64,000 bases of DNA from Mesorhizobium sp. AR02 (GTDB taxonomy: Bacteria > Pseudomonadota > Alphaproteobacteria > Rhizobiales > Rhizobiaceae). The stretch lies in assembly GCF_024746835.1 (NCBI RefSeq), contig NZ_CP080531.1, positions 1,674,001 through 1,738,000 of the forward strand, read 5' to 3'. Shown here in pieces: positions 16,724-49,798 of this stretch. The translations under genes and the position numbers were made by a program. The notes beneath the pieces were generated by a model that saw only the letters and a list, made by a program, of their open reading frames with translations, did not search any database and had not been told where the DNA came from. Numbering within the stretch: the stretch's first letter is position 1; each line of letters opens with the position of its first letter.

Positions 16724-17977
16724 CTATTTCAGAGCGGCAACGAGCCCGGCATCGGGAAAGCAGGTCTCTGCCTGGCCGTTCTTGGCCTGCCACTTGCCGA
16801 TCGAGCGGCGGGTCTTGAAGCCGGGCAGGCCGTCGGCGCTGCCGACATCATAGCCCTTGGCTTCCAGCGCCCTTTGCAGGGCGGCGATATCGGAGCGGTG
16901 GAGATCGCCGACCGGGCCCCAGCTGCCGGAAAAATTCTGATCGCCATGCGCGATGCGGTCGGCGCCATGGCCGATGAACAGCGCATAGAGGTCGCTGGTG
17001 TTGTATTCCTTCAGCACGTAGAAATTGGGGGTTGCGATGAAAGCCGGCCCGCTGCGGCCGGCCGGCATCAGCAGGAAGCCCTCCGCTTTCAGCTCACTCG
17101 CGGGAAATGCTTTTCCGCCGACGCGCTTGATGCCCATGTCGGCCCACTCGGAAATCTTCTTGCCCTGATCGGGGCCTTCCAGCGAGCACGAGACGCTTTC
17201 GGGCACGGTCACCTCGAAACCCCAGCCGCGCCCCCGCACCCAGCCATAATGGACGAGATAATTGGCGATCGAGGCGAGCACGTCGGGCGTCGAATTCCAG
17301 ATGTCGACGCGGCCGTCGCCATCGAAATCCATGGCATGCTTGAGGAAGGAGGTCGGCATGAATTGCGGCTGGCCGAGCGCACCGGCCCAGGACGATTTCA
17401 TCGCGCCGACCGGCGCCAATCCGCGTTGGACGATTTCAAGCGCGGCCAGAAGCTCGGTGCGGAAGAAATCCTTCTTGGTCGACATGAACGCCTTGGTGCC
17501 AAGCACCTCGAAGGCATCGTAGGGCATCTTCGCCGCGCCGAAGCCGGTCTCGCGGCCCCAGATCGCCAGAAGGATCTCGCCGGGCACGCCATAGCGTTTT
17601 TCGATTGCGGCAAGCGTCCTGGCGTTGGTGGCTTCGCGCGCGCGTCCGCCTGATGTCACTGCACGAACCGTCTTCTCGGCGAAATAGGCGCCGGGCGAGC
17701 CGAACTCGGCCTGATGCTGCTTCTGCGGCGTTTTCGGCTTCTCGCCGGGCATGACGAGGTCGGGAAGCTTCAGATTGGGCTTTATGCCGTCGAAGGCGGC
17801 ATCGAAAGTCTGCTTGGATATGCCTTTGGCCTTGGCCTCGGGCCAGAGGTCGTTCTGCAGCCAGGCGCGGAACTGGTCGTCGATCTTGGCGGCGGAGGCG
17901 GGGGCGATGAGGAAAACAGTGAGGAGAGCTGCAAGAAAGGAAAGCAGAGCCAACCTGAGAGGACGCGCAACAATCAT
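16724..17977 (-). CDS. Lytic murein transglycosylase with peptidoglycan-binding domain
   Basis: 417 residues: signal sequence (about 1-30, ASA), an MltB-type SLT_2 catalytic domain with the catalytic glutamate in IWGRETGFG, and a C-terminal PG_binding_1 domain (DIAALQRALEAKGYDVG). It cleaves the glycan strand of murein in the periplasm. The start at 17977 has GGAGAGGG 8 nt upstream. No lipobox is seen, so it is probably soluble. Confidence 0.88.
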   Translation of the reverse strand: MIVARPLRLALLSFLAALLTVFLIAPASAAKIDDQFRAWLQNDLWPEAKAKGISKQTFDAAFDGIKPNLKLPDLVMPGEKPKTPQKQHQAEFGSPGAYFAEKTVRAVTSGGRAREATNARTLAAIEKRYGVPGEILLAIWGRETGFGAAKMPYDAFEVLGTKAFMSTKKDFFRTELLAALEIVQRGLAPVGAMKSSWAGALGQPQFMPTSFLKHAMDFDGDGRVDIWNSTPDVLASIANYLVHYGWVRGRGWGFEVTVPESVSCSLEGPDQGKKISEWADMGIKRVGGKAFPASELKAEGFLLMPAGRSGPAFIATPNFYVLKEYNTSDLYALFIGHGADRIAHGDQNFSGSWGPVGDLHRSDIAALQRALEAKGYDVGSADGLPGFKTRRSIGKWQAKNGQAETCFPDAGLVAALK

Positions 17978-45101: not shown

Positions 45102-45135
45102 GCCCGTCTCGGCGTCGCGCCGGGGTGGGCTCTTT
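45102..45135. repeat. Hairpin, copy 1 of a duplicated palindrome flanking the small YxxP gene
   Basis: GCCCGTCTCGGCGTCGCGCC followed by GGGGTGGGCTCTTT folds into a stem-loop. A near-identical palindrome is at 45318-45347 (AGCCCGTCTCGGC ... GGGGCGGGCT). The two lie on either side of the small gene at 45207-45296. Each could act as a terminator, although the T-run after them is short. Confidence 0.7.
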
Positions 45136-45143
45136 CCGTGAGG

Positions 45144-45172
45144 TTGACAATGTGCACCAGCACGTTGCATCT
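45144..45172 (+). promoter_or_regulatory. Candidate promoter of the small YxxP gene
   Basis: TTGACA at 45144-45149, a 17-nt spacer and GCATCT as a weak -10. The same -35 with the same spacing precedes the second YxxP gene on the other strand, which supports the assignment. Confidence 0.45.
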
Positions 45173-45206
45173 GAGTTGAGGGAAAGTCTGCAACACAGGG
45201 GTCATT

Positions 45207-45296
45207 ATGAAGAAGTACGAAAAGCCGACACTCGTCAAGCGCGAGTGCCTGTCTAAGGTTGTCGCCGCGACGGTGACGTCCAAGCCCGTCGCCTGA
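45207..45296 (+). CDS. Putative RiPP precursor peptide with YxxP leader (29 residues)
   Basis: The peptide begins MKKYEKPTLVKRECLSKV and ends TSKPVA. The Y-E-K-P-x-L motif followed by a charged stretch and an LSxV segment is the leader pattern recognised by RRE (PqqD-like) domains in lasso-type and related RiPP pathways. Rhizobial homologues are usually listed as putative RiPP precursors. AGGGG precedes the ATG by 7-8 nt. The short C-terminus lacks the Gly1 and acidic ring residue of a true lasso core and has one Cys in the leader part. No maturation enzymes are visible nearby. Confidence 0.7.
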   Translation: MKKYEKPTLVKRECLSKVVAATVTSKPVA

Positions 45297-45317: not shown

Positions 45318-45347
45318 AGCCCGTCTCGGCTCACGCCGGGGCGGGCT
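45318..45347. repeat. Hairpin, copy 2 of the duplicated palindrome
   Basis: AGCCCG (45318-45323) pairs with CGGGCT (45342-45347), and inner CGGC pairs with GCCG. It begins 21 nt after the stop of the small YxxP gene and next to the end of the convergent gene, so a terminator role is likely. Confidence 0.7.
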
Positions 45348-45836
45348 CTATCGGGCCGTCTTTATCAGGCGCTCCAAAACGGGAAAGTCGTCAAGGTCCC
45401 TATACGGCGTCAGATCCAAATCGCCAGGCACACGCTTGAGCGTCTCTTCGTCGATTTGTTTCTCGTGAGCCTTCATCACTGCTTGGTAATCTCTCCACGT
45501 GAGGCCGGCACCCCTCACAGCATCTCGCTCGGCCCGAAGGGCGATCTGGTGGGCGTGGAGGTAATGCAACCTGAGCTCGTCCAGAAGCGCTTTCTCGACG
45601 ACCTCGTGCGTGACCAGGAATGGCGCAAGTCTGACGTCCACGCCCTCCCGTCCGATAGTTCGTGGCAGGTGCCGGTCGATATAGATGGTCTTCGCATCCA
45701 CGCTGTAGCCGGCAATGTAGGGGATATCGAATTCGTGGCTAACCGTGACGCGCCGTTCAAGAGCCGTTACCACATCGGCCAGTACGTCATCGTCAACGTC
45801 TTCGGATTTGTGACGGACCTCATTTTCAAGCTTCAA
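45348..45836 (-). CDS. Hypothetical protein with HExxE...HxxHxH pattern (paralogue 1)
   Basis: 162 residues from a TTG start with GGAG 8 nt upstream. It shares many identities with the protein at 49031-49696: DIPYIAGYS, KTIYIDRHLP, HEVVEKALLDEL, LHYLHAHQIA, TWRDYQAVM and DLTPYRDLDD. The conserved His77, Glu78, Glu81, His91, His94 and His96 have the same spacing in the paralogue and could bind metal. No known family is recognised and no signal peptide is present. It is convergent with the YxxP gene at 45207-45296. Confidence 0.72.
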   Translation of the reverse strand: MKLENEVRHKSEDVDDDVLADVVTALERRVTVSHEFDIPYIAGYSVDAKTIYIDRHLPRTIGREGVDVRLAPFLVTHEVVEKALLDELRLHYLHAHQIALRAERDAVRGAGLTWRDYQAVMKAHEKQIDEETLKRVPGDLDLTPYRDLDDFPVLERLIKTAR

Positions 45837-46059: not shown

Positions 46060-46330
46060 GCTTTCCTCCTGTTTGGCTGGCCTGGTATAAGCTAGGAATT
46101 TGAGCGGGCCGAATTCGTTCCGCCACGGGTTGCGTCCATTACCTCACATGCCAGCCTGACCTCGGCCCTGGTGCGACACGACAGTTTTTAGGCGAACCGT
46201 CCATCTCCCACACTATCATGCCGGGCCGGACAATTTCTATCATTCGTAGACCCTGCCCGCATCTCGCTCAAAACGCTTCCGGAACCATTTCCGCGCAAGC
46301 TAATTGAATCGCGGCTTGCGAGTCCTGTGC

Positions 46331-47233
46331 ATGCGTTTGAAGTTCGTCGCGCCCCTGATGCCGACCCTTGTCGAGCAGCCTCCCGAAGGCGACGGATGGA
46401 TTCACGAGGTCAAGTTCGACGGCTACCGCTCGCAGCTCATCATCGATGAAGACGGCACGCGGATCTACACGCGCAACGGCCACGACTGGACGGCGAAATA
46501 TCGGGACCTGATAGAGGAGGCAAAAAGCCTACGCGCGGAGAGCGTGATCATCGACGGCGAAATCATCGTCTTGAATGAAGCCGGGCTTTCGGACTTCGGC
46601 GAGTTGCGGAAGGCGATCACCCGCCGGCAGCATGACCTATATTTCGTCGCGTTCGATCTGCTCCATCTCAATGGCCATGATTTGCGCGACATGGCGCTGG
46701 AGGAACGTCGCGAAATCCTGGCCAGCATGATCGAGCCGGGCTGGCGTATCCAGTTCAGCGAGCCGCTGCCGGGCGAAGCCAAGGCCATCTTTCATCTGCT
46801 CGACCAAGCAGGATTGGAGGGGATGGTTTCAAAGCGGCGAGACAGCAAATATCGCAGCGGTCCCTCAACGAACTGGCTGAAAGCCAAATGCTACTCCATC
46901 GACGAATATGAATTGCTGGGTGTCGAGCGCGAGGCTGGCAAGCCGGCCTTCGCGCTGATGGCAGAACGAGCGACCGGCCGCTATGTCGGCAGCGCCTTCA
47001 TCACCTTGAACCGGGAGGTGCGTGAACGCCTCTGGCAACGTGTCCAGGAGCGCCCAGGCACGACGCCGAAGGGGATGAAGCGGCCGGCGACGCAATGGGT
47101 TAAGCCGGGGCTAATTGGCCGTGTGAAGCATCTGCGTAGCGAGGACGACCTGCGGCACGCATCGCTGCAGGATTTTCGGGAGGAAGAAGACGATGGCCTC
47201 GAACTTGGCGCGGCATCGCTCAATAACAAATGA
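46331..47233 (+). CDS. Stand-alone ATP-dependent DNA ligase domain (LigD type)
   Basis: 300 residues. The adenylation lysine is in HEVKFDGYR (Lys28), followed by IIDGEIIVL, LEGMVSKRRDSKY and WLKAKC, the successive nucleotidyltransferase motifs of LigD-like ligases, then an OB-fold C-terminus (YVGSAFITLNREVRE). It lacks the polymerase and phosphoesterase domains of full LigD. No Ku gene is adjacent. Rhizobia often carry several such ligases on accessory DNA. Start: an ATG at the beginning of homology. Confidence 0.87.
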   Translation: MRLKFVAPLMPTLVEQPPEGDGWIHEVKFDGYRSQLIIDEDGTRIYTRNGHDWTAKYRDLIEEAKSLRAESVIIDGEIIVLNEAGLSDFGELRKAITRRQHDLYFVAFDLLHLNGHDLRDMALEERREILASMIEPGWRIQFSEPLPGEAKAIFHLLDQAGLEGMVSKRRDSKYRSGPSTNWLKAKCYSIDEYELLGVEREAGKPAFALMAERATGRYVGSAFITLNREVRERLWQRVQERPGTTPKGMKRPATQWVKPGLIGRVKHLRSEDDLRHASLQDFREEEDDGLELGAASLNNK

Positions 47234-48610: not shown

Positions 48611-48681
48611 TTCCCTATTTGGCCTTTTGTTTTGCGGCCCTGTATTCAGAAGGCCGCCCCGGCGTCACCCGAGACTGGCTT

Positions 48682-48777
48682 TCAGATCTGCGACTGTCCG
48701 GAGGCGACCGTAATGGCCGTAACCGCCGACAGCTTCTCTCGCTTGGTCAGGATCGGCTTTTCGTAGGTTTTCTTCAT
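48682..48777 (-). CDS. Putative RiPP precursor peptide with YxxP leader (31 residues)
   Basis: The peptide begins MKKTYEKPILTKREKLSA followed by VTAITV and ends SGQSQI. The YEKPxL leader motif and LSAVTA segment match those of the gene at 45207-45296, though the last ten residues differ. AGGGG lies ahead of the ATG by 8 nt. It looks like a RiPP leader with a short core. The core has no Cys and no acidic residue, so a classical lasso or lanthipeptide is unlikely. No modification enzymes are nearby. Confidence 0.7.
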   Translation of the reverse strand: MKKTYEKPILTKREKLSAVTAITVASGQSQI

Positions 48778-48809: not shown

Positions 48810-48838
48810 GATTGCCTCGCGACGAGGCGACCTGTCAA
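48810..48838 (-). promoter_or_regulatory. Candidate promoter of the second YxxP gene
   Basis: On the minus strand TTGACA (48838-48833), a 17-nt spacer and GCAATC (48815-48810) precede the gene by 33 nt. The arrangement parallels that at 45144-45172. Confidence 0.45.
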
Positions 48839-49030: not shown

Positions 49031-49696
49031 CTAACGCGGCCCCGTCGCCTTCTTCGCGGCAGGGTTGGCCTTCGCCGCCGCACGGCCCTTCGGCTGATGT
49101 GTGTGGGTCATGACCGTCTTAAGTTGGGCCTTGATCTTGGCGTGCAATTTAGCCTTGTCGACGCCTGCGGGGTAAATGCCCTTCTCAATACTAGTCGCCA
49201 TGCGCTCCAGCAGATCGGTATCGTGTTCGTCGCGGTAGGGTTTTAGGTCGAGGTCTGCCGGCACTTTGGTAAGCCGTTCATCGTCCATCGTCTTCACGTA
49301 CTTCTGCATGAAGCGGTCATAGTCACGCCAGGAGATGCCGGCCGCTCGCACTGCGGCTTCTTCCGCCCGAGTGGCGATTTGGTGGGCGTGCAGATAGTGC
49401 AGGTCCAATTGGTCGATCAAAGACTTCTCGACCTCCTCGTGCAACAATAGGAAACGGTCGGTGTTGATCTTGCGGCCCTTATATTCCCATTCGCTGGGCA
49501 TATGCCGGTCGATATAGATCGTCTTTCCATCTTTCGAATAGCCGGCGAGATAGGGGATGTCGTGCTTGCGGTCGAGAGTCTTGACCTTGCGCACCACAGC
49601 ATCGAGCGCCCTATCCATCATAAGGCTGGAAACATACCAGTTGGGCAAGCGCAGCTTTTTGTGCGGCGCGGTCGGATGGCAATAGTCGAACGCCAT
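49031..49696 (-). CDS. Hypothetical protein with HExxE...HxxHxH pattern (paralogue 2)
   Basis: 221 residues. It is the paralogue of 45348-45836 with the same blocks (DIPYLAGYSKDGKTIYIDRH; HEEVEKSLIDQLDLHYLHAH). His86, Glu87, Glu90, His100, His103 and His105 keep the same spacing. It adds about 50 C-terminal residues, ending in a basic Ala/Lys tail (AAAKANPAAKKATG). GGGGAG precedes the ATG. The function is unknown; a metal-dependent hydrolase is possible but not shown. It lies upstream of the second YxxP gene on the same strand, 253 nt away. Confidence 0.75.
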   Translation of the reverse strand: MAFDYCHPTAPHKKLRLPNWYVSSLMMDRALDAVVRKVKTLDRKHDIPYLAGYSKDGKTIYIDRHMPSEWEYKGRKINTDRFLLLHEEVEKSLIDQLDLHYLHAHQIATRAEEAAVRAAGISWRDYDRFMQKYVKTMDDERLTKVPADLDLKPYRDEHDTDLLERMATSIEKGIYPAGVDKAKLHAKIKAQLKTVMTHTHQPKGRAAAKANPAAKKATGPR

Positions 49697-49798
49697 GGGT
49701 ATTCTCCCCCCTGCAAAGCGTTCGAATGATAATTGCACGTCATTCCATGTCGGGCAATTCGCATGCGTTGGATAGGCAGCCGGAAAGCGACATCGCAG

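Follow-up and report, generated by a model that had tools for sequence, protein, structure and literature searches.

Dispersed short peptide genes in Mesorhizobium co-occur with an orphan lasso-type locus that has no cyclase

Introduction

The closest described systems to the peptide genes reported here are phosphorylated lasso peptides and linear polyphosphorylated peptides (LPPs). In paeninodin-like systems, HprK-type kinases phosphorylate a Ser of the precursor; the pseudomycoidin NTase is reported to place a hexose on the phosphate, though an alternative is also allowed for (PMC9266682). In bsf lasso leaders the motif YxxPxL spans positions -17 to -12, and Ile or Val at -2 is noted for phosphorylated lasso peptides (excerpt of PMC10368454). 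The LPPs, published in 2026 and described in the excerpted text as restricted to Bacillota, are phosphorylated at Ser3 of a linear core (PMC13381572).

RiPP mining usually seeks precursors beside their enzymes, and a family whose members are mostly unlinked and about 30 residues long is therefore easily missed. Among the open-licence PMC papers listed, none appears, judging by title and abstract opening, to describe the precursor family reported here. We analysed a 64,000-nucleotide stretch of Mesorhizobium sp. AR02 (contig NZ_CP080531.1, positions 1,674,001 to 1,738,000), henceforth termed the window. The family to which one tiny gene in it belongs appears to point to an undescribed kind of linear, probably phosphorylated peptides.

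A tiny gene of the window and its dispersed family

The gene under study (copy 1), a second precursor gene (copy 2) and their surroundings comprise the following features of the window:

45207..45296, + strand: open reading frame of copy 1, 29 codons, translation MKKYEKPTLVKRECLSKVVAATVTSKPVA
45207..45266, + strand: predicted leader, 20 codons, MKKYEKPTLVKRECLSKVVA, placed by its register against bsf lasso leaders (excerpt of PMC10368454)
45267..45296, + strand: predicted core ATVTSKPVA plus stop, from the translation; its Ser is core position 5
45197..45201, + strand: AGGGG, a G-rich ribosome binding site, from the sequence and a comparison with the upstream stretches of other copies
45144..45149, + strand: TTGACA, -35-like, 63 nt 5' of the copy 1 ATG, from the sequence and the upstream comparison of copies
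45102..45130, + strand: hairpin 5' of copy 1, resembling the 3' hairpin (folding; -22.5 kcal/mol, z -3.2)
45318..45347, + strand: hairpin 3' of copy 1 (folding; -27.2 kcal/mol, z -4.0)
48682..48777, - strand: copy 2, MKKTYEKPILTKREKLSAVTAITVASGQSQI, from translation and genome search
48833..48838, - strand: TTGACA 61 nt 5' of copy 2, from the sequence and upstream comparison
48653..48679, - strand: weak hairpin 3' of copy 2 (folding; z -1.6)

The sequence-only reading had described copy 1 as having a G-rich ribosome binding site, a candidate TTGACA promoter and duplicated flanking hairpins. The ribosome binding site is present, and so are the hairpins, which have a 12-nt direct repeat. Neither hairpin was called a terminator by the scan, which gave two terminator-like sites where shuffles led to an expectation of 0.7; one of the two (45344-45357) lies at the foot of the 3' hairpin, which is possibly the end of a small transcript. 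As for the promoter, the TTGACA motif recurs with at least five of six letters 45-75 nt upstream of 16 of the 20 family copies in the host genome, compared with 10% for randomly chosen positions there, but scanning for the consensus gave 0 sites with a complete sigma-70 promoter. Rfam models at gathering cut-offs matched only one tRNA and one SRP RNA in the whole window, and the earlier statement that no maturation genes are close is borne out, with neither a B2 (PF13471) nor a PqqD/RRE (PF05402) match in these 64 kb.

Copy 1 is a real, coding gene, and the 8.9-Mb host genome (4 contigs) holds 20 copies of its family on three contigs, C2, C3 and C4, after removal of two unrelated long frames from 22 matches. 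The leader follows the consensus MKKTYEKPTLxKREKLSAV[T/V]A across the 20 copies; the tail is hypervariable, 7-14 residues long, with a Ser in every one. Among the 18 copies with a standard leader, the fraction of minor letters at codon positions 1, 2 and 3 is 0.153, 0.144 and 0.389 in the leader, and in the tail, for 18 of the 20 copies, it is 0.48, 0.51 and 0.56. Since leader variation sits mostly at third codon positions, the leader is held at the protein level and the tail is much freer. Homologues with the conserved leader extend beyond the host, and the lack of them that was to refute the earlier reading is thus not what was observed: at E 0.05 the family is matched in 103 of 146 genus genomes, in two only weakly, and near relatives of copy 1 with a similar leader and altered tails occur, for example, in genomes G130, G095, G017 and G046. 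A plasmid search matched two Mesorhizobium plasmids, with no feature annotated under the matches in an incomplete gene table.

The window and contig C4 have segmentally duplicated DNA in common (82% identity over 658 nt). The C2/C4 common segment holds a precursor together with its neighbour gene, and at least one copy has therefore spread by segmental duplication. Two related proteins of the window without a Pfam match (45348-45836 and 49031-49738, both on the - strand; 55% identical) each lie near one precursor, and a third relative (87%) adjoins a precursor on contig C4. The same contig carries pieces resembling the DNA ligase gene of the window (46304-47233), at L012:8130-8222 and 17636-17853, which are apparently left over from related duplicated DNA. 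Elsewhere on C2, a hot spot (G000:C2:5160483-5234429) packs eight precursors into less than 75 kb, and three of these form a tandem array on a single strand.

Leader register and core residues

Register and residue counts cover the 20 own copies, 42 copies found in cis inside the orphan-B2 loci described below (45 rows, less two wrong-start duplicates and one degenerate row from L121) and 37 peptides of other genera. When the cut is placed behind the conserved [T/V/A]A, 98 of the 99 peptides begin their YxxP motif at position -17. This lasso register, along with RRE and B2 proteins encoded elsewhere in the genome, upholds the earlier view of the tiny YEKPTL gene as a precursor with an RRE-type leader. 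With the inferred cleavage site as zero, the window leader has Tyr at -17, Pro at -14, Leu at -12 and Val at -2. The first letter of the motif is Tyr in 60 of the 62 own and cis copies (one His and one Cys in the others), and Leu stands at -12 in 59. Leader models scanned at E 1 against 17 of the 20 own copies gave weak matches (Pfam DUF5972 in 10, NCBIfam lasso_cyano in 9); both window peptides, whose scores alone were examined individually, fall below the curated cut-offs (lasso_cyano: no match to copy 1, 19.7 against 33 bits for copy 2).

Every one of the 62 own and cis cores has a Ser, in 61 cases within the first six residues, and all 37 other-genus cores have Ser or Thr, eight of them Thr without Ser; the first Ser ranges over core positions 1-10. 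These counts come from related sequences and are not independent. Residues suited to a lasso ring are scarce. The window core has no Asp or Glu, none of the 20 own cores starts with Gly, and one has Asp or Glu at positions 7-9, there as the last residue, in keeping with the earlier judgement that a core without Gly1 and an acidic ring residue is, if modified, not of a known lasso type. Acidic residues at 7-9 occur in one of 42 cis copies and in eight of 37 other-genus copies, two of the latter with Gly1. The two cores that combine Gly1 with Asp8, GTGGTAPDISAGG and GPGGTEPDIRPQ, belong to one array of another genus (L156).

Two lasso-type loci in the host genome

Searches of the complete genome found two B2-family (PF13471) and three PqqD/RRE-family proteins. 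They identified two main loci:

G000:C2:1,902,280-1,905,126 (L031): orphan locus, from profile searches; B1, B2 and an HprK-like kinase on one strand, with a convergent NTP_transf_5 (NTase) gene
G000:C2:1932142-1938012 (L033:9143-15013): canonical lasso locus, from profile searches and inspection; precursor, B1, B2, cyclase (NF033535, 797 bits) and an HprK-like protein

The orphan locus lies 185 kb from copy 1 and about 27 kb from the canonical one; neither a cyclase nor a precursor was seen in it. Its kinase falls short of the family cut-offs (HprK_rel_A, 31 against 200 bits; Hpr_kinase_C, 18 against 33). The precursor of the canonical locus has a YETPSL leader at -17 and a GGGGSTAID... core, predicted as GGGGSTAIDASFPAHTPIGDLTFS. 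An ABC transporter of that locus, named by inspection, consists of two overlapping frames, and the gene therefore looks frameshifted in the host genome. The third PqqD-like protein is encoded at L034:9722-14000 (G000:C2:2217221-2221499), followed by an HprK-like protein below cut-off; glycosyltransferase-like frames (by inspection) are also present there, and a PF13471 B2 is not. Both this region and the orphan locus adjoin what look like dihydroxyacetone-kinase genes.

Because the host's orphan locus has no precursor copy of its own, the dispersed copies are its only known putative substrates in this host. This bears on whether the copies might be decaying duplicates, mostly unexpressed, with only the cis copies of other species being of consequence. 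Relics would fit the pair lying in segmentally duplicated DNA and the degenerate copy in L121, but the constraint on first and second codon positions of the leader, the intact frames, the TTGACA element upstream of most copies and a host locus without a copy of its own make such decay very unlikely in our judgement.

Linkage of precursors and enzymes in other species and genera

Near relatives of the host's orphan B2 were compared at 74 loci, with up to 10 kb on each side; the named ones are mostly Mesorhizobium, and a few come from other or unclassified Alphaproteobacteria. B1, B2 and HprK are present in all 74 and the NTase in 73, and a lasso cyclase was found within 10 kb in none. A pattern search over whole loci found a GxGK..DD kinase-type and an RRC..AH.W B2-type pattern in all 74. 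Of these loci, 32 contain precursors, which in 21 of the 32 end no more than 150 nt before the B1 match. With the transporter pieces of the lasso locus as queries, no dedicated exporter was found near the orphan locus: 57 of the 74 loci gave ABC-domain matches of about 30% and no membrane-domain match, at about 8-10 kb from B2 in the six loci whose positions were seen.

The association extends to other genera of the bacterial family. Twelve regions were taken from nine of the 13 precursor-bearing other-genus genomes, and in six of them 1-10 precursors adjoin B1, B2, HprK and NTase genes, with no cyclase match in these precursor-bearing loci. In L162, precursor, B1, B2, kinase, NTase and an AMP-binding ligase follow one another on one strand in overlapping or adjacent frames. 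A B2 over cut-off was found in 13 of 13 precursor-bearing other-genus genomes and in none of 18 without precursors (the first 18 of 375 negatives; two weaker matches), and beside B2 at the 13 loci, each about 3.3 kb, HprK occurs in 12, B1 in 11 and the NTase in eight. Precursors also occur in nine genomes from four further families of the order (15 positives among 397, six of these from the same genus).

No lasso cyclase over cut-off was found in any of the 13 precursor-bearing genomes, and weaker asparagine-synthase-like matches occur in 10 of the 13 and in six of 14 control genomes. In genome G409 (contig C84), a precursor at L201:7830 with the core AIQNSLQKLP is followed after about 20 nt by an asparagine-synthase gene (L201:7944-9818, + strand) that scores 371 bits with TIGR01536, over cut-off, and 164 against 525 with the lasso cyclase model; the B2 and kinase of G409 are on another contig. 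Given this neighbour and the Gly1/Asp8 cores of L156, ring chemistry may occur in some family members. The cyclase control (0/13) and these exceptions pull in opposite directions.

In two other genera, an AMP-binding ligase gene lies within the precursor cluster (L162:5645-7072, - strand; L156:10758-12164, + strand), which suggests an extra modification step there. Such other chemistry, and the weak profile scores of the kinase, would suit a product that is simply trimmed and unphosphorylated, the kinase-like protein and the NTase doing something else. We regard this as unlikely, in view of Ser or Thr in 99 of 99 cores, the kinase-type pattern in every one of the 74 loci and, in the excerpts at hand, related kinases that phosphorylate a precursor Ser in lasso and LPP systems (PMC9266682, PMC10368454, PMC13381572).

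Co-occurrence across the genus

Across the 146 genus genomes, the orphan B2 is present in 97, and any precursor match coincides with it closely (both in 97, precursor only in six, B2 only in none, neither in 43); the six exceptions hold one or two precursor matches each. All 97 genomes with the orphan B2 have at least three precursors (3-29 per genome) and none of the 49 without it does (0-2), the threshold of three having been chosen after the counts were seen. Precursor counts used a threshold of E 0.05 and a ceiling of 55 scored candidates for each genome, so that high counts may be lower bounds.

The lasso cyclase, matched at E 1e-80 in 106 of the 146 genomes, behaves differently. Five of the 106 matches fall below the family cut-off, four of these among the 15 genomes with a cyclase match and no orphan B2. 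Those 15 hold 0-2 precursors, whereas six genomes with the orphan B2 and no cyclase match at this threshold hold 6-16 (one of the cyclase-less genomes, G123, is only 79% complete). Because the discordant genomes split in this way, the precursors follow the orphan locus and not the lasso cyclase. For an rpoB tree, 30 genomes were chosen, including 21 discordant for cyclase and orphan B2, and G123, with a partial rpoB, was left out. On the resulting tree of 29 genomes, the orphan B2 changes at least four times and precursors follow in four of four independent pairs, too few for significance (sign test, p 0.125); the lasso cyclase has no such relation to the precursors.

These data also weigh on the idea that the canonical lasso locus (G000:C2:1,932,142 onward), with its own B1, B2 and cyclase, acts on the peptides, which would become lasso peptides or decoys. 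Its leader register is identical, with YETPSL at -17 in the lasso precursor, the two host loci are neighbours at about 27 kb, the cyclase is widespread in the genus, and two L156 cores have Gly1 and Asp8; at this distance, cross-talk of the precursors with the canonical B1, B2 and cyclase may occur. The split of the discordant genomes runs against full dependence on that locus, as do the precursor-bearing other-genus genomes without a cyclase over cut-off and the near-absence of ring residues from the host's own cores. Cores of 7-14 residues also look too short for a threaded lasso. We consider this reading highly improbable.

Proposed system

The data establish the gene family and the constraint on it, an upstream element that most copies share, and the orphan locus, which co-occurs with the precursors and is linked to them in other species. 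We think it likely that copy 1 belongs to a lasso-derived RiPP family without a cyclase, whose roughly 20 scattered precursors in this genome are matured in trans by the orphan locus. The stand-alone RRE (B1) would bind the leader through YxxPxL, the HprK-like kinase would phosphorylate the conserved core Ser, and the NTP_transf_5 protein may add a further group to the phosphate. B2, a Cys/His peptidase of the lasso type, would cut after V/T-A and release a short peptide, for copy 1 ATVTSKPVA, which would stay linear, as no macrolactam cyclase is there to form a ring. From the register, the Ser conservation and the precedents of paeninodin, pseudomycoidin and the LPPs, we infer a leaderless, Ser-phosphorylated linear product, perhaps a strain-variable signal or effector peptide.

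A broader reading, to which we give about even credence, is that of a combinatorial system in Mesorhizobium and related Alphaproteobacteria, where one orphan set of RRE, kinase, NTase and B2 matures 3-29 short linear phosphopeptides that are spread over the genome and diversify fast, encoded on several replicons under a common promoter; their phosphate may bear a sugar or nucleotide. If true, every strain gets its own peptide set. Such a system would provide one enzyme set with a natural library of hypervariable cores, and in a nitrogen-fixing symbiont genus a peptide signal would be of interest. It would also part leader removal and kinase tailoring from ring formation within the lasso lineage, beyond Bacillota and while keeping the original B2 peptidase, and would therefore bear on the origin of linear phosphopeptide RiPPs.

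Comparison with known systems

Prochlorosins are lanthipeptides made by ProcM. They resemble the present family in the use of many hypervariable precursors by one enzyme (excerpt of PMC10783134), as is proposed for the orphan set, and a like layout was found, with 20 copies on three of four contigs and one orphan B2; their enzymes and leader are unrelated to the precursor family described here.

Phosphorylated lasso peptides (paeninodin, pseudomycoidin, bsf), as excerpted from PMC9266682 and PMC10368454, have B1, B2, an HprK kinase and in some cases an NTase in common with the orphan system, along with YxxPxL at -17 to -12, Thr, Ile or Val at -2 and Ser as the phosphate acceptor. The lasso features found here are the YxxPxL leader spacing and the co-occurrence of an RRE (B1) and a Cys peptidase (B2) with the precursor. 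The lasso systems encode a cyclase and close their N-terminal ring on Asp or Glu, whereas the orphan locus has no cyclase and the cores have few such residues. The family is not a lasso peptide family, two defining features being absent, the macrolactam cyclase from the cluster and, with few exceptions, the ring residues from the core. An assignment of copy 1 as a lasso peptide proper was rejected on its lack of ring residues, the locus without a cyclase and the discordant genomes.

The LPPs, in the excerpted text of PMC13381572, are alike in their discrete RRE, HprK kinase (below cut-off here) and NTP transferase, in the missing macrolactam cyclase, and in a YxxP leader, a variable C-terminal part and a lasso locus that often coexists. 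They differ in using an SpI-like peptidase, a role that here would fall to the lasso B2 Cys peptidase, and their cluster has an MsbA-like transporter (same excerpt). By inspection, the LPP leader YxxPxVLxHQxIxFETxxS is not matched by our consensus. Each LPP cluster has 1-3 precursors of 35-200 residues in Bacillota, according to that text, whereas the present precursors, of about 30 residues and 3-29 per genome, belong to Alphaproteobacteria and are mostly unlinked in the host genome. Because peptidase, leader consensus, precursor size, number, dispersal and phylum differ, we do not file the family as LPP.
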